DNA from: Pseudoxanthomonas composti
Lineage (GTDB): Bacteria > Pseudomonadota > Gammaproteobacteria > Xanthomonadales > Xanthomonadaceae
Reading direction: 5' to 3'
DNA: 64,000 bases
Assembly: GCF_004122095.1 (NCBI RefSeq)
Contig: NZ_SAWZ01000002.1
Span: forward strand, 594,638-658,637
Below the pieces are notes generated by a model. That model searched no databases. It saw only the letters and a list, made by a program, of their open reading frames with translations, and had not been told where the DNA came from. Shown here piece by piece: positions 2,743-41,207 of the stretch. The translations under genes were made by a program, and so were the position numbers. Position 1 is the first letter of the stretch. The number at the start of each line of letters is the position of its first letter.

Positions 2743-2818
2743 GGGGCCATAGCTCAGCTGGGAGAGCGCCTGCATGGCATGCAGGAGGTCGGCGGTTCGA
2801 TCCCGCCTGGCTCCACCA
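2743..2818 (+). tRNA. tRNA-Ala (anticodon GGC), copy 1
   Basis: 76 bases with encoded CCA. The acceptor arm GGGGCCA pairs with TGGCTCC and contains the G3:U70 wobble pair that defines alanine identity. The anticodon loop ATGGCAT gives GGC. D-loop (AGCTCAGCTGGGAGAGC) and T-arm (GGTTCGATC) are canonical. First of two copies; followed by tRNA-Glu after 52 bases. Confidence 0.98.
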
Positions 2819-2870
2819 CGTTTCAAGGGACAGAAGATAGGCCCTTCTGTCTTGCTTCAAAGCTCAACGC

Positions 2871-2946
2871 GTCCCCATCGTCTAGAGGCCTAGGACATCA
2901 CCCTTTCACGGTGGCGACCGGGGTTCGAATCCCCGTGGGGACGCCA
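2871..2946 (+). tRNA. tRNA-Glu (anticodon TTC), copy 1
   Basis: 76 bases with encoded CCA. Acceptor GTCCCCA pairs with TGGGGAC; anticodon loop CTTTCAC gives TTC; T-arm GGTTCGAATCC. Forms a unit with the preceding tRNA-Ala that is repeated 259 bases downstream. Confidence 0.98.
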
Positions 2947-3001
2947 TTTCACGATGAGAGCGCAGCGAGACATCGCCGCGCTTTTTCTTCGAAGCAGTAT
3001 C

Positions 3002-3077
3002 GGGGCCATAGCTCAGCTGGGAGAGCGCCTGCATGGCATGCAGGAGGTCGGCGGTTCGATCCCGCCTGGCTCCACCA
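3002..3077 (+). tRNA. tRNA-Ala (anticodon GGC), copy 2
   Basis: Identical in sequence to the copy at 2743-2818, with the same G3:U70 pair and GGC anticodon. The 54 bases between the first tRNA-Glu and this gene differ from the spacers inside each pair. Confidence 0.98.
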
Positions 3078-3129
3078 AGTTCCAAAAGATGGAAGTTAGG
3101 CCCTTCCGTCTTGCGTCAACGCTCAACGC

Positions 3130-3205
3130 GTCCCCATCGTCTAGAGGCCTAGGACATCACCCTTTCACGGTGGCGACCGGGGTTCGAATCCCCGTGGGGA
3201 CGCCA
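3130..3205 (+). tRNA. tRNA-Glu (anticodon TTC), copy 2
   Basis: Identical to the copy at 2871-2946. The Ala-Glu spacer is diverged but alignable with the first spacer (shared AGGCCCTTC and GCTCAACGC). Last gene of the four-tRNA run; an intrinsic terminator follows 9 bases later. Confidence 0.98.
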
Positions 3206-35840: not shown

Positions 35841-36266
35841 TCAGCGCGAAACCACTTCGGTGGAGGCGAACCAGTAAGCCACTTCGATGGCGGCGTTCTC
35901 GACCGAGTCCGAGCCATGGGCGGCGTTGGCATCGATGGAGTCGGCGAAGTCGGCGCGGATGGTGCCCGGGGCGGCGTCCTTGGGGTTGGTCGCGCCCAGC
36001 AGCTCGCGGTGCGCGGCCACGGCGTTCTCGCCTTCCAGCGCCTGGATCATCACCGGGCCGGAAATCATGAACTCGACCAGCGCGTTGAAGAACGGGCGGT
36101 CCTTGTGCACGGCGTAGAAGCCCTCGGCCTCGCGGCGCGACAGCTGCTTGTACTTGGCCGCCACGACCTTCAGGCCGGCCTTCTCGAAGCGGGCGTAGAT
36201 CTCGCCGATGACGTTCTTGGCGACGGCATCGGGCTTGATGATGGACAGGGTGCGCTCCAGCGCCAT
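35841..36266 (-). CDS. ndk: Nucleoside diphosphate kinase
   Basis: 141 residues. Transfers the gamma phosphate between nucleoside triphosphates and diphosphates through a phospho-histidine, H117 ([12 protein letters not shown]). Family motifs: [61 protein letters not shown] lies 7 bases before the ATG. First gene of the ndk-rlmN-pilF-rodZ run. Its leader contains an intrinsic terminator and a second hairpin, which suggests regulated read-through. Confidence 0.98.
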
Positions 36267-36283
36267 GGATGTTCTCCGGTGGG

Positions 36284-36302
36284 CGGGTCACTCAAGGACC
36301 CG
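36284..36302 (-). promoter_or_regulatory. Second hairpin in the ndk leader
   Basis: Six-pair stem CGGGTC / GACCCG with a 7-base loop, between the leader terminator and the ndk ribosome-binding site. It ends 17 bases before the start codon. Confidence 0.4.
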
Positions 36303-36312
36303 AGGTTACATG

Positions 36313-36337
36313 AAAAAAACCCGCGTCGAAACGCGGG
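36313..36337 (-). terminator. Intrinsic terminator in the ndk leader
   Basis: Stem CCCGCGT / ACGCGGG with a 4-base loop, followed on the minus strand by seven T. It lies 47 bases upstream of the ndk ATG, with no minus-strand gene on its upstream side. A TAGAAT (-10-like) is at 36360-36365, so transcripts from it would meet this terminator within about 40 bases. Confidence 0.75.
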
Positions 36338-36411
36338 CTTAGGCTTTATTCCTGCGCAAATTCTAACGCAAGCCGGGCGCTCGTGCACCTCTGCGGATGC
36401 GGCGATGCAGC

Positions 36412-36439
36412 ATGACAGGGCGCACGGGCGGCGTAGACT
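36412..36439 (+). promoter_or_regulatory. Candidate psrA promoter
   Basis: ATGACA (36412-36417) and TAGACT (36434-36439) with a 16-base spacer. The palindromic operator begins at the last base of the -10, so bound repressor would block RNA polymerase. Confidence 0.4.
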
Positions 36440-36454
36440 CAAACAATCGTTTGA
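36439..36454. promoter_or_regulatory. PsrA-type operator
   Basis: Perfect palindrome TCAAAC-AATC-GTTTGA. It fits the published Pseudomonas PsrA consensus (G/C)AAAC-N2-4-GTTT(G/C) exactly. It is 17 bases upstream of the psrA start, in position for autorepression and for control of the following beta-oxidation genes. Confidence 0.75.
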
Positions 36455-36471
36455 TTCATGTGCCAGGCCAG

Positions 36472-37134
36472 ATGGGACCCGCTGCGCAGTTCTCCACCAA
36501 AGACCGCATCCTTGGCGCTGCCGAGGAGCTGTTCGCGCTCCACGGGTTCGCCGGGACCTCGCTGCGCCAGGTGACCAGCAAGGCCGACGTGAACATCGCG
36601 GCGGTCAACTACCACTTCGGCTCCAAGGAAAACCTGGTCAACGAGGTGTTCCGCCGGCGCATGGACGTGATGTCCGCGCTGCGGCTGTCGCAGCTGGAGC
36701 GCGCGCTGTCGGCGCATCCGGGCCAGCTGCGCCCGATCCTGGCGGCCTTCGTCGAGCCGGCCCTGGCCATGGCGCTGGACCGCAACGGCGGTGGCGCCTT
36801 TGTCCGCGTCATCGCCCGTGCCTACGCGGAAAAAAACGACAGCTTGCGGCGCTTCCTGTCCGACCACTATGGCCACGTGCTGCGCGACTTCGGCCGGGCC
36901 ATGGCCGCCTGCCTGCCCGACCTGGACAAGGAAACCCTGTACTGGCGGCTGGACTTCCTGGCCGGCGCCCTGACCTACGCAATGGCCGACTTCGGCGTGA
37001 TCAAGCGCCCGCAGGGGGTCAGCGAAGCCCAGCACCGTGCCCAGGCCGCCGCAGAACTCATCCGCTTCGCCGAAGCCGGCTTCCATGCCGGCGGCGGGCG
37101 TCCCACCGCTTCCCCTGATCCTTCAGAGGCTTGA
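36472..37134 (+). CDS. psrA: TetR family fatty-acid-responsive regulator, PsrA-like
   Basis: 220 residues from ATG 36472. The HTH region closely resembles Pseudomonas PsrA (TSLRQVTSKADVNIAAVNYH, then FGSKENLVNEVF), and the C-terminal part shares YGHVLRDF and YWRLDFLAGAL with it. PsrA senses long-chain fatty acids or acyl-CoA and controls beta-oxidation, itself and, in pseudomonads, rpoS. The ATG after the operator is preferred to 36397, because the longer form would be translated through the promoter and operator. Five bases separate its stop from the fatty-acid oxidation genes, so they are probably one operon. Confidence 0.88.
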   Translation: MGPAAQFSTKDRILGAAEELFALHGFAGTSLRQVTSKADVNIAAVNYHFGSKENLVNEVFRRRMDVMSALRLSQLERALSAHPGQLRPILAAFVEPALAMALDRNGGGAFVRVIARAYAEKNDSLRRFLSDHYGHVLRDFGRAMAACLPDLDKETLYWRLDFLAGALTYAMADFGVIKRPQGVSEAQHRAQAAAELIRFAEAGFHAGGGRPTASPDPSEA

Positions 37135-37139
37135 TCCGC

Positions 37140-39512
37140 ATGTCCCAGAAACTTCTCGTCCGCCGCGTGGCCGTCCTCGGCGCCGGCGTCATGGGTGCCC
37201 AGATCGCGGCGCACCTGACCAACGCAGGCGTCGATACGATCCTGTTCGATCTCCCTGCCAAGGAGGGACCGGCCAGCGGCATCGTGCTCAAGGCCATCGC
37301 CAACCTGGGCAAGCTCTCGCCCGCCCCGCTGGCCGCCAAGGGCCTGGCCGAGGCCATCACCCCGGCCAACTACGGCAGCGACCTGGAGCTGCTGCGCGAG
37401 TGCGACCTGATCATCGAGGCCATTGCCGAGCGCATGGACTGGAAGCAGGACCTGTACGCCAAGATCGCCCCGTTCGTGGCCGACCACGCGGTGCTGGCCT
37501 CCAACACCTCGGGCCTTGGCATCAACAAGCTGTCCGAAGTGCTGCCCGAGCAGCTGCGCCACCGCTTCTGCGGCGTGCATTTCTTCAACCCGCCGCGCTA
37601 CATGCACCTGGCCGAGCTGATCCCGGCCAGGACCACCGACGTGGCCGTGCTGGAGGGCCTGGAGACTTTCCTGGTCACCACCCTGGGCAAGGGTGTGGTC
37701 TACGCCAAGGACACGCCGAACTTCATCGGCAACCGCATCGGCGTGTTCTCCATCCTGTCCACGATTCACCACACGCAGGAGTCCGGGCTGGGCTTCGACG
37801 AGGTCGATGCGCTGACCGGCCCCCTGGTGGGCCGGCCGAAGTCGGCCACCTATCGCACCTCCGACGTGGTTGGCCTGGACACCATGGCCCACGTCATCAA
37901 GACCATGGCCGACACCCTGCCCGACGACCCCTGGCATGCCTATTTCAAGTCGCCCAAGTGGCTGGAGGCGCTGATCGCCAAGGGCGCGCTGGGCCAGAAG
38001 ACCGGCGCCGGCATCTTCCGCAAGGCCGGCAAGGACATCCTTGTCCTTGATCTGGAGAAACAGGACTACCGCGCTTCGGACCGCACAGCTGCACCGGAGG
38101 TCGTCGAGATCCTCAAGATCAAGGACCCGGCCGAGAAGTTCGCCAGGCTGCGCGAGAGCCAGCACCCACAGGCGCAGTTCCTGTGGGCGACCTTCCGCGA
38201 CCTGTTCCACTACAGCGCCTATCACCTGGCCGACATCGCCGAGACCGCGCGCGACGTGGATTTGGCCATCCGCTGGGGCTACGGCTGGTCGCTGGGGCCG
38301 TTCGAGACCTGGCAGGCCGCGGGCTGGAAGCAGGTGGCGCAGTGGATCGCCGATGACATCGTGGCCGGCAAGACCATGTCCGACGCGCCGCTGCCGGATT
38401 GGGTGTTCGACGGCCGCGAGGGCGTGCACGGTGCCGAAGGCTCCTACAGCCCGGTGCAGAACGCCAAGCTGCCGCGCTCGTCGCTGCCGGTGTACAAGCG
38501 TCAGCGCTTCCCCGACCCGGTGCTGGGCGAGCGCTTCCTGCAGGGCGAGACCGTCTACGAAAACGATGGCGTGCGCATGTGGCACGACGGCGACGACGTG
38601 GCCGTGGTCAGCTTCAAGACCAAGATGCACACCGTGTCCGACCAGGTCCTCGACGGCCTGCAGGAAGCGGTGACCCGCGCCGAGAAGGACTACAAGGGTC
38701 TGGTGATCTGGCAGCCCAAGGAGCCCTTCTCCGCCGGTGCCGACCTGGCCGGTGCGCTGGGCCTGCTGCAGGCGGGCAAGGTGGACGCGTTCGAGGCCAT
38801 GGTCGCCAATTTCCAGGCCACCAGCCAGCGCATCAAGTACTCGCTCGTGCCGGTGGTGGCCGCGGTGCGCGGCCTGGCCCTGGGCGGCGGCTGCGAATTT
38901 CAGATGCACAGCGCCAAGACCGTGGCCGGCCTGGAGAGCTACATCGGTCTGGTCGAGGCCGGCGTGGGCCTGTTGCCGGCCGGTGGCGGCCTGAAGGAAC
39001 TGGCCGCGCGCGCCTCGGTGGCCGCCGGCCCGGGCGGCGACGTGTTCGCCGAGCTGAAGAAGACCTTCGAGACCATCGCCATGGCCAAGGTCTCCAACTC
39101 GGCGGTCAATGCGCAGGAACTGGGCCTGCTGCGGCCGACCGACAAGGTGGTCTTCAACGCCTACGAGTCGCTGTACATCGCCAAGAACGAGGCCGCGGCG
39201 CTGGCCGAGTCGGGCTACCGCCCGCCCCTGCCCGCACGCCGCATCCAGGTCGCCGGCGACGTCGGCATCGCCACCTTCAAGATGCTGCTGGTCAACATGC
39301 TGGAAGGCCGTTTCATCAGCGAGTACGACTACGAGATCGCCACCCGCATCGCCACCGTGCTGTGCGGCGGCGAGGTGGATCGCGGCGCGCTGGTGGACGA
39401 GGAATGGCTGCTCAAGCTGGAACGCCGCCACTTCGTCGAGCTGGCCCAGCAGGACAAGACCCAGGCGCGCATCGCGCACATGCTCAAGACTGGGAAGCCG
39501 CTTAGGAACTGA
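37140..39512 (+). CDS. 3-hydroxyacyl-CoA dehydrogenase / enoyl-CoA hydratase (FadN-type domain order)
   Basis: 790 residues. Carries out the hydration and NAD-dependent oxidation steps of beta-oxidation. The NAD-binding dehydrogenase domain is at the N-terminus (VAVLGAGVMGAQIAAHL, then CGVHFFNPPRYMHLAELIP near residue 145), its C-terminal domain follows, and the crotonase fold lies at about residues 490-740 (WQPKEPFSAGADLAGAL; VRGLALGGGCEFQMH oxyanion loop). This is the reverse of E. coli FadB and matches Bacillus FadN. ATG 37140 with AGAGG about 10 bases upstream is preferred to a TTG at 37131. It follows psrA and precedes the thiolase. Confidence 0.93.
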   Translation: MSQKLLVRRVAVLGAGVMGAQIAAHLTNAGVDTILFDLPAKEGPASGIVLKAIANLGKLSPAPLAAKGLAEAITPANYGSDLELLRECDLIIEAIAERMDWKQDLYAKIAPFVADHAVLASNTSGLGINKLSEVLPEQLRHRFCGVHFFNPPRYMHLAELIPARTTDVAVLEGLETFLVTTLGKGVVYAKDTPNFIGNRIGVFSILSTIHHTQESGLGFDEVDALTGPLVGRPKSATYRTSDVVGLDTMAHVIKTMADTLPDDPWHAYFKSPKWLEALIAKGALGQKTGAGIFRKAGKDILVLDLEKQDYRASDRTAAPEVVEILKIKDPAEKFARLRESQHPQAQFLWATFRDLFHYSAYHLADIAETARDVDLAIRWGYGWSLGPFETWQAAGWKQVAQWIADDIVAGKTMSDAPLPDWVFDGREGVHGAEGSYSPVQNAKLPRSSLPVYKRQRFPDPVLGERFLQGETVYENDGVRMWHDGDDVAVVSFKTKMHTVSDQVLDGLQEAVTRAEKDYKGLVIWQPKEPFSAGADLAGALGLLQAGKVDAFEAMVANFQATSQRIKYSLVPVVAAVRGLALGGGCEFQMHSAKTVAGLESYIGLVEAGVGLLPAGGGLKELAARASVAAGPGGDVFAELKKTFETIAMAKVSNSAVNAQELGLLRPTDKVVFNAYESLYIAKNEAAALAESGYRPPLPARRIQVAGDVGIATFKMLLVNMLEGRFISEYDYEIATRIATVLCGGEVDRGALVDEEWLLKLERRHFVELAQQDKTQARIAHMLKTGKPLRN

Positions 39513-39660
39513 GATTGGGGATTGGGGATTCGTTGAAGCGGATCTCCTCCCCTCGACCCTCTCGCCTCCAACACATTCATCCGCCGGGCAGAAGCGTTCG
39601 TGTCGGGATCCGCACTTACGAATCCCCAATCCCGAATCCCCAATCCCGGCCTCCGGAGAA
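39513..39660. repeat. Hairpin-forming insertion between the fad genes
   Basis: Outer arms: GATTGGGGATTGGGGATTCG at 39513-39532, and its complement built of two CGAATCCCCAATCCC copies at 39619-39647. A nested pair GCGGATC (39538-39544) / GATCCGC (39607-39613) extends the dyad. The frame stays open across the insert, but codon use does not look coding. Confidence 0.8.
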
Positions 39661-39666
39661 ACCCAA

Positions 39667-40875
39667 ATGACCAAGCAGATCCAGGACGCCTACATCGTCG
39701 CCGCCACCCGCACCCCGGTCGGCAAGGCGCCCAAGGGCGTGTTCCGCAATACCCGCCCTGATGACATGCTGGCGCATGTGCTGAAGGCGGTCGTGGCGCA
39801 GGCGCCGGGCATCGATGCGAGCCGCATCGACGATGCCATCATCGGCTGCGCCATGCCCGAGGGCGAGCAAGGCATGAACGTGGCGCGCATCGGCCTGCTG
39901 CTGGCCGGCCTGCCCGACGTGATCGCCGCGCAGACCATCAACCGTTTCTGTTCCTCCGGCCTGCAGGCCGTGGCGCTGGCCGCCGACCAGATCCGCCTGG
40001 GCAACGCCGACCTGATGCTGGCCGGCGGCACCGAATCGATGTCGATGGTGCCGATGATGGGCAACAAGGTCGCCCTGAGCCCGTCGGTGTTCAAGGACGA
40101 CCATGTCGCTATCGCCTACGGCATGGGCATCACGGCTGAGAAGGTCGCCGAGGAATGGAAGGTCTCGCGCGAGGACCAGGATGCCTTTGCCCTGGCGTCG
40201 CACCAGAAGGCGATCGCGGCGATCCAGGCAGGCGAGTTCGCCTCGGAAATCACGCCGTACGAGATCCACTCCTACCAGCCCAACCTGGCCGACGGCAACA
40301 CCATCGCCCTGCGCAAGCTGCTGGTCGAGCACGACGAGGGCCCGCGTCCGGATTCCTCGCTCGAAGGCCTGGCCAAGCTGCGCCCGGTGTTCCGCAATGG
40401 CCAGTTCGGGGGCAGCGTGACCGCGGGCAATTCCTCGCAGATGAGCGATGGCGCCGGTGCGGTGCTGCTGGCTTCCGAGCAGGCGATCAAGGACTACGGC
40501 CTGACCCCGCTGGCCCGCTTCGTCAGTTTCTCGGTGGCCGGTGTGCGCCCGGAAGTGATGGGCATCGGCCCGATCGCGGCGATTCCCAAGGCGCTCAAGC
40601 AGGCGGGCCTGAGCAAGGACCAGCTGGACTGGATCGAGCTCAACGAGGCCTTCGCTGCCCAGTCGCTGGCGGTGATCCGCGACAGCGAGCTGGACCCGTC
40701 CAAGGTCAACCCGCTCGGCGGCGCCATCGCCCTGGGCCACCCGCTGGGGGCGACCGGTGCAATCCGCACCGCCACCCTGGTCCATGGCCTGCGTCGCCGC
40801 CAGCAGAAGTACGGCATGGTGACCATGTGCATCGGCACTGGCATGGGCGCGGCGGGCATCTTCGAAGCGCTCTGA
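39667..40875 (+). CDS. fadA: Acetyl-CoA acyltransferase (3-ketoacyl-CoA thiolase)
   Basis: 402 residues. Last step of beta-oxidation: thiolytic cleavage of 3-ketoacyl-CoA. The acyl-enzyme Cys is C95 in NRFCSSGLQA; GHPLGATGA and CIGTGMGAAG supply the catalytic His and second Cys; NEAFAAQ is the thiolase loop. Start ATG 39667 with GGAG about 9 bases upstream. It follows the FadN-type gene with a 154-base spacer that is a large hairpin, so expression relative to its partner may be tuned by RNA structure. A terminator-like hairpin follows. Confidence 0.97.
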   Translation: MTKQIQDAYIVAATRTPVGKAPKGVFRNTRPDDMLAHVLKAVVAQAPGIDASRIDDAIIGCAMPEGEQGMNVARIGLLLAGLPDVIAAQTINRFCSSGLQAVALAADQIRLGNADLMLAGGTESMSMVPMMGNKVALSPSVFKDDHVAIAYGMGITAEKVAEEWKVSREDQDAFALASHQKAIAAIQAGEFASEITPYEIHSYQPNLADGNTIALRKLLVEHDEGPRPDSSLEGLAKLRPVFRNGQFGGSVTAGNSSQMSDGAGAVLLASEQAIKDYGLTPLARFVSFSVAGVRPEVMGIGPIAAIPKALKQAGLSKDQLDWIELNEAFAAQSLAVIRDSELDPSKVNPLGGAIALGHPLGATGAIRTATLVHGLRRRQQKYGMVTMCIGTGMGAAGIFEAL

Positions 40876-40920
40876 GCCTGGCGCGGCAGGGGCTCCGTTC
40901 CCTGCCCTGTCCGCGAGACA

Positions 40921-40947
40921 AAGAAGGCGGCCCATGGCCGCCTTCTT
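40921..40947 (+). terminator. Terminator hairpin after fadA
   Basis: Perfect 12-pair stem AAGAAGGCGGCC / GGCCGCCTTCTT with a CAT loop, 45 bases after the fadA stop. The 3' tract is CTTG, so U-richness comes mainly from the stem end. Confidence 0.8.
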
Positions 40948-40964
40948 CTTGCCCACAACCGTAG

Positions 40965-40989
40965 GGTGGATGACGCTCCTACATCCACC
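40965..40989. repeat. Type 2 palindrome (GGTGGATG family)
   Basis: Arms GGTGGATG / CATCCACC, preceded by CGTAG. Same palindrome as in the arrays at 3.3-3.6 and 54.2-54.6 kb. It lies between the fadA terminator and the candidate small RNA. Confidence 0.75.
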
Positions 40990-41070
40990 ACCGCGGCAAA
41001 AGCACACCGCCGGCCGGTCCGCCGGAGTCATCCCATCGGAAGGTTCCACGAATGTGGGCTCGATGGGCAC

Positions 41071-41175
41071 AAAAAAATCCGATGCCAGAAACCTGACATC
41101 GGATGCTGTGAGACTTAGTCGTTCAAGTGTGGAATGACGGGCCCTCGGATACTTCCTAGGGCTCCGTGTCTCAGC
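41071..41175 (-). ncRNA. Candidate small RNA or processed 3' UTR downstream of galU
   Basis: On the minus strand the 3' end is a strong intrinsic terminator: stem ATCCGATG / CATCGGAT (41077-41104) followed by seven T. Just upstream, TGAGAC (41168-41173) pairs with GTCTCA (41109-41114), enclosing a 53-base domain with an inner GCCCT / AGGGC stem (41141-41145, 41158-41162). There is no open reading frame. The 5' end is a guess. It could be an independent sRNA or the 3' UTR of galU, whose stop is at 41220. The two terminator arms are separate from the flanking palindromic repeats. Confidence 0.45.
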
Positions 41176-41181
41176 GCGTCA

Positions 41182-41207
41182 GGTGGACAAGCTTCGCGTT
41201 GTCCACC
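41182..41207. repeat. Type 1 palindrome (GGTGGACAA family)
   Basis: Arms GGTGGACAA / TTGTCCACC around GCTTCGCG, ending CCCTAC. It lies 12 bases after the galU stop, at the 5' side of the candidate small RNA. Confidence 0.75.

Follow-up and report, generated by a model that had tools for sequence, protein, structure and literature searches.

In the genome of Pseudoxanthomonas composti, a PsrA-like TetR gene is followed by fadB and fadA and is preceded by a palindromic PsrA-type operator that overlaps the end of a predicted promoter, and this arrangement is conserved in most genomes of the Xanthomonadaceae. It is very probable (about 0.9) that the locus represents the PsrA switch in its Xanthomonadaceae form, in which a PsrA-like TetR dimer bound to the operator autorepresses psrA-fadB-fadA and is released by fatty acids. 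The operator-promoter switch is already known, and the same switch has been tested in the close relative Stenotrophomonas maltophilia. The window, that is, the whole stretch of DNA that was analysed, comprised 64,000 nucleotides of contig NZ_SAWZ01000002.1, and contained the following features:

36264-36381, minus strand: leader of ndk, which is divergent, with TAGAAT at 36360-36365, directly followed by a hairpin with a T run at 36317-36340, and the ndk start at 36266
36412-36417, plus strand: -35-like hexamer ATGACA, from the promoter scan, belonging to the sole promoter-like site in 36200-41200
36434-36439, plus strand: -10-like hexamer TAGACT, from the promoter scan, sharing one base with the operator
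36439-36454, no strand: operator palindrome TCAAAC-AATC-GTTTGA, PsrA-type, from the sequence and its conservation in relatives
36445-36456, no strand: possible second inverted repeat AATC-GTTT-GATT, shifted by 4 bp and overlapping the operator, from the pairing count
36472-37134, plus strand: PsrA-like TetR regulator of 220 aa, from the match to 2fbq, NCBIfam and Pfam
37140-39512, plus strand: fadB-like 3-hydroxyacyl-CoA dehydrogenase/enoyl-CoA hydratase of 790 aa with the dehydrogenase part first, from Pfam (3HCDH/ECH) and NCBIfam
39667-40875, plus strand: fadA-like acetyl-CoA C-acyltransferase (thiolase), from NF006553 (736.4 bits, cut-off 567) and Pfam, with the ATG taken from the sequence

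The regulator carries the Pfam domains TetR_N and TetR_C_30, and its best match in the Protein Data Bank is 2fbq (E 8e-32). We take this structure to be PsrA (PA3006) of Pseudomonas aeruginosa; the title of the record reads merely "probable transcriptional regulator". The initial annotation had described a helix-turn-helix very like that of Pseudomonas PsrA, and this was borne out by a TetR fold in which 39 of the 60 residues of the helix-turn-helix region (residues 3-62) were identical to 2fbq. The regulator did not reach the cut-off of 300 bits in the NCBI curated PsrA model NF053516 (score 156.7), and because that model refers by name to the Vibrio type, the shortfall speaks against the Vibrio subtype rather than against the wider PsrA group. 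The regulator was found in 77 of the 79 family genomes, including all 72 with a completeness of 90% or more and a contamination of 5% or less. A TetR paralogue (L004; 33% identity over residues 7-95) was considered as a second PsrA and was rejected because its C-terminal domain is AefR-like.

The operator consists of TCAAAC (36439-36444), a spacer of AATC (36445-36448), and GTTTGA (36449-36454), and the regulator's own promoter contains the pattern (G/C)AAAC-N2-4-GTTT(G/C). The sigma-70-like promoter ATGACA-16-TAGACT (36412-36439) was the single find of the scan in 36200-41200, for which shuffled sequences gave a mean of 0.2. The operator and the -10 box share one base, the first of the operator and the last of the box, and the operator covers the transcription start that would be expected from this promoter. 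The ATG of the TetR gene (36472) lies 17 bases 3' of the palindrome, and an ATG occurs at the same place in many relatives. The palindrome, its adjoining -10-like TAGACT (the overlap being one base) and the distance of 17 bases to the TetR gene were thus found as the initial annotation had placed them. The promoter stretch is shared with a genome of the same genus (L016) and with P. beigongshangi (L058). Among 102 distinct relatives, a promoter hexamer pair with at least 9 of 12 matches was present in 48, and the T and the A of the TAGACT box were kept in 72 and 84, respectively.

Conservation was assessed in 114 loci, 111 of which contained the regulator gene (80 from named genomes, 29 from other family genomes, and the window twice, as L001 and L003). 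These 111 loci are the nearest relatives, the named ones being the best 80 of 556 and the others the best 30 of 79 family genomes by score; their upstream stretches gave 102 distinct 76-mers for position-wise counts, in which kinship is uncorrected. TCAAACN4GTTTGA was present upstream in all 111 close-relative loci (83 exact, 25 with one mismatch and three with two), always with a spacer of 4, whereas in one shuffle per upstream stretch the best match had 2, 3, 4, and 5 mismatches in 4, 28, 56, and 23 loci. The AAC of the left half and the GTTT and last A of the right half were invariant in the 102 distinct close relatives. Because these loci were nearest relatives, the 20 leftover family members were read afterwards: a spacer of 4 occurred in 19 of them, with one, two, and three mismatches in 12, 5, and 2, and the remaining member (L205) had no convincing operator, merely a two-mismatch match without a spacer. 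Shuffles of these diverged members gave 3, 4, and 5 mismatches in 8, 10, and 2 cases; since three mismatches are reached in 8 of 20, the three-mismatch sites are not above chance. The seven diverged members with two or three mismatches and the one without a convincing site count against the best explanation. Over all 77 family genomes with the regulator, the operator was exact in 51, differed by one, two, and three mismatches in 18, 5, and 2, and was not convincing in one.

Counting sites genome-wide was rejected as evidence. The loose motif CAAACN2-4GTTTG occurred at three sites in the P. composti genome and its reversed-pattern control at one, composition predicts about 1.1 sites per spacer length, and the count at two mismatches equalled that of its control. 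The operator is not a product of chance; conservation decides this, and genome counting alone does not. Beyond the family, a class-wide search of 229 genomes detected relatives (E <= 1e-20) in 22, three of them in the family itself. A PsrA-like site with at most one mismatch and a spacer of 2-6 was present at 12 of the 19 loci outside the family, four of them exact. Single-locus shuffle values were 0 to 0.12 for these 12 loci and 0.135 to 0.95 for the other seven, and taken locus by locus this evidence is weak.

Downstream of the operator, the window contains regulator, fadB, and fadA in one direction, as in the Smlt2053-2051 type of operon. The beta-oxidation genes had been annotated as following the regulator after five bases; this holds for fadB, whose ATG (37140) is separated by 5 bases from the TetR stop codon (37132-37134), but not for fadA, whose ATG (39667) comes after a gap of 154 bases with a dispersed repeat. 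In this gap, GGGATT(C/G)G repeats stand in inverted arrangement (39513-39650), and a 20-base unit has 25 forward and 31 reverse copies genome-wide with at most two mismatches (control 0). Because of the 154-base gap and the inverted dispersed repeat, fadA might be uncoupled from psrA-fadB; no terminator-like site was found on the plus strand of 36200-41200, and psrA, fadB, and fadA would be expected to form a single transcript. In 110 of the 111 loci, fadB comes after the regulator, the exception (L017) ending before the fadB position. The fadA gene is present in 76 of the 80 named loci, and the four without it end early; this count covers the named loci, as the 30 other family loci and L001/L003 do not extend as far as fadA. 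Named relatives in the family include Stenotrophomonas, Xanthomonas, Pseudoxanthomonas, Lysobacter, and Luteimonas, and the P. composti genome comprises 4.33 Mb. The initial annotation had inferred a shared transcript for regulator and targets here. The gene order is confirmed and conserved, and the layout is not new, being described in PMC10304680 and PMC6637906.

Judging from the S. maltophilia orthologue, the product of the first gene of the operon would bind TCAAAC-N4-GTTTGA as a PsrA-like TetR dimer. Because the operator extends from the end of the -10 box across the expected start site, the bound dimer would exclude RNA polymerase, and psrA-fadB-fadA would be repressed. Free long-chain fatty acids would bind to the C-terminal domain and release the dimer, iso-branched acids or DSF probably being further releasing ligands, and the beta-oxidation enzymes would then be produced until the acids are consumed. 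The autoregulated, fatty-acid-responsive operon that was proposed from the letters is supported, as such control was demonstrated for the orthologous Smlt2053-2051 and the operator, promoter position, and gene order were confirmed here.

Two other accounts of the same locus were weighed against this switch. The protein might be a global regulator that also acts on distant rpoS, fad, and lipid targets via degenerate sites, as in Pseudomonas; the broad regulons of P. aeruginosa and Shewanella PsrA speak for such a role, but in P. composti it is improbable. The exact 12-base motif (the TCAAAC and GTTTGA halves) has one site in this genome, at psrA, sites with at most two mismatches number 29 against 29 in the control, and the search for RpoS found none at the curated cut-off and four matches below it. 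The wider regulon of fad, rpoS, and lipid genes that the earlier reading had envisaged was not recovered, and a global regulon of the Pseudomonas type was not found in this genome. In the S. maltophilia mutant, too, the confirmed changes were limited to two operon genes, according to PMC10304680. On the other hand, the exact motif occurs at 61 sites in 54 of the 79 family genomes, 51 of them immediately before psrA and the other 10 at different places (a second site in each of G013, G036, G050, G051, G055, G061, and G078, and the single site in each of G014, G025, and G076). Because these 10 exceed the 2-3 sites predicted by composition for 79 genomes (~0.02-0.035 per genome; the reversed pattern occurs once in 79), further targets may exist in a few lineages. 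One exact site of G036 (L146, 1501-1516) lies upstream of a citrate synthase gene, and gltA is reported as a target of Shewanella PsrA. Within the 3 kb locus around the exact site of G014, matches to psrA, fadB, fadA, and ndk were all absent. Two loose sites, one before a gltB-like gene with a class-II glutamine amidotransferase domain (L002) and one before an acyltransferase gene (L005), were examined and not accepted as targets.

It is more improbable still, and indeed scarcely credible, that the palindrome serves ndk or another regulator while the TetR protein acts elsewhere. The palindrome does sit in the region that separates psrA from ndk, and the two genes are divergent in 110 of 110 loci examined, but ndk has its own conserved TAGAAT on the minus strand, 74 bases from the palindrome. 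Furthermore, the palindrome is the motif reported as bound in the orthologous promoter of S. maltophilia (PMC10304680), and the similar sites outside the family (12 of 19 loci) also lie upstream of the regulators.

The ndk leader has a feature of its own. A script found a terminator-like hairpin with a T run in 98 of the 111 upstream regions on the ndk strand and in one on the other strand; a general terminator scan found four, against a shuffle mean of 2.9, and would not by itself single out this hairpin. In an alignment of 40 leaders (the window and 39 of the 78 distinct named leaders), 96.7% of the cells pair, five of the ten pairs are invariant, and three of the ten have one cell each that is changed on both sides. 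At gathering scores, the Rfam matches in the window were four tRNAs only, with none at the ndk hairpin, which is a candidate attenuator or short-RNA end. The available part of a survey of premature terminators names rnk and does not contain the word ndk. The four tRNA genes stand in a row at 2743-3202 (62.7, 56.8, 62.7, and 56.8 bits), a pattern suggestive of a duplicated pair.

The conserved bases of the operator are asymmetric. Among the 102 distinct close relatives, 49 have the spacer AATC and 45 have AAGC, two have a self-complementary spacer, and the 3' flank is TT in 94, whereas the mirrored 5' AA occurs in 13. A repeat shifted by 4 bp, AAnC-GTTT-GATT, has three or four of its four pairs in 93 of the 102, against 16 for the mirror shift. 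A tentative and rather unlikely interpretation is that the genus and its near relatives have two overlapping operators offset by 4 bp (CAAAC-AATC-GTTTG and CAATC-GTTT-GATTs) for two dimers. If true, this would explain why the spacer and the 3' flank are kept and the 5' flank is not, and it would account for the second EMSA complex reported with Smlt2053 (PMC10304680). The authors of that study, however, point to an additional inverted repeat in the Smlt2053 promoter, and none is visible here beyond the overlapping one; a scan of 18 loci for a separate second repeat gave only weak two-mismatch matches besides it. The 20 diverged family members, in which the flank is mostly AATC, do not retain the offset repeat. 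Alternatively, the asymmetric bases may be held by transcription initiation.

The closest known system is Smlt2053-Smlt2051 of S. maltophilia K279a, which resembles the present operon in gene order, in the operator motif on its own promoter, and in its orthologous proteins (PMC10304680). An S. maltophilia strain among the relatives (L088) contains TCAAACAATCGTTTGA without a single change. According to PMC10304680, the Smlt2053-2051 operon is autorepressed: EMSA showed the protein on its own promoter, fatty acids longer than C12, iso-C15:0, and DSF each released it, and deletion of Smlt2053 raised the expression of both downstream genes; RNA-seq of the mutant indicated seven changed genes, which was confirmed for the two operon genes only. 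Binding, autorepression, and release by fatty acids or DSF were thus measured in K279a, whereas the P. composti operon is known from its sequence. XAC2014-2012 of Xanthomonas citri is described as having the same operon and operator (PMC10304680, PMC6637906). In the available parts of these two reports no direct binding test of XAC2014 was found, and PMC6637906 concerns TfmR, a different regulator. A DSF/Rpf study of X. citri lists XAC2014, 2013, and 2012 together as changed (-1.29, -1.66, and -1.25). Smlt2053 and Xac2014 share a common operator and operon layout, whereas P. aeruginosa has psrA as a single gene (PMC10304680). Further related papers are PMC13104628, PMC5343134, PMC3223726, PMC6337780, PMC2965389, and PMC11089167.

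PsrA of P. aeruginosa is described as a TetR protein with the motif G/CAAAC(N2-4)GTTTG/C, autorepression, and a long-chain fatty-acid ligand; the regulator considered here is like it in fold and motif and probably in autorepression and ligand. In contrast, P. aeruginosa PsrA is encoded by a single gene and has a broad network that includes rpoS, whereas the P. composti regulator heads a fad operon, and a single exact site was detected in its genome. FadNAE/FadR of Bacillus subtilis likewise combines a TetR-type fatty-acid regulator with a dehydrogenase-first FadB, but it belongs to another TetR lineage and has another operator. Other families of the class also have regulator-first fad operons: 9 of the 19 loci outside the family contain a downstream fadB match (the stretches of L177 and L182 are too short to show one), and at all seven loci tested, the long gene immediately after the regulator encodes a FadE-type acyl-CoA dehydrogenase. 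The P. composti genome has a single match to the FadE-type family, at a separate locus where it follows a hydrolase gene and a divergent TetR gene. This locus appears to be the tfmR-mhpC-fadE arrangement of PMC6637906, TfmR being identified from the order of the genes and a TetR_N domain rather than from the TfmR sequence. Two independent regulators of beta-oxidation were already proposed in that report. Because fadE adjoins the other TetR gene here and a fadE-type gene stands directly behind the PsrA-like regulator in other Gammaproteobacteria, the pathway seems to be split between two fatty-acid sensors. These results extend a switch known from one strain to the whole family, which is a refinement rather than a surprise, and they suggest that the switch is nearly local, most genomes having a single operator at a fixed place on the regulator's own promoter.
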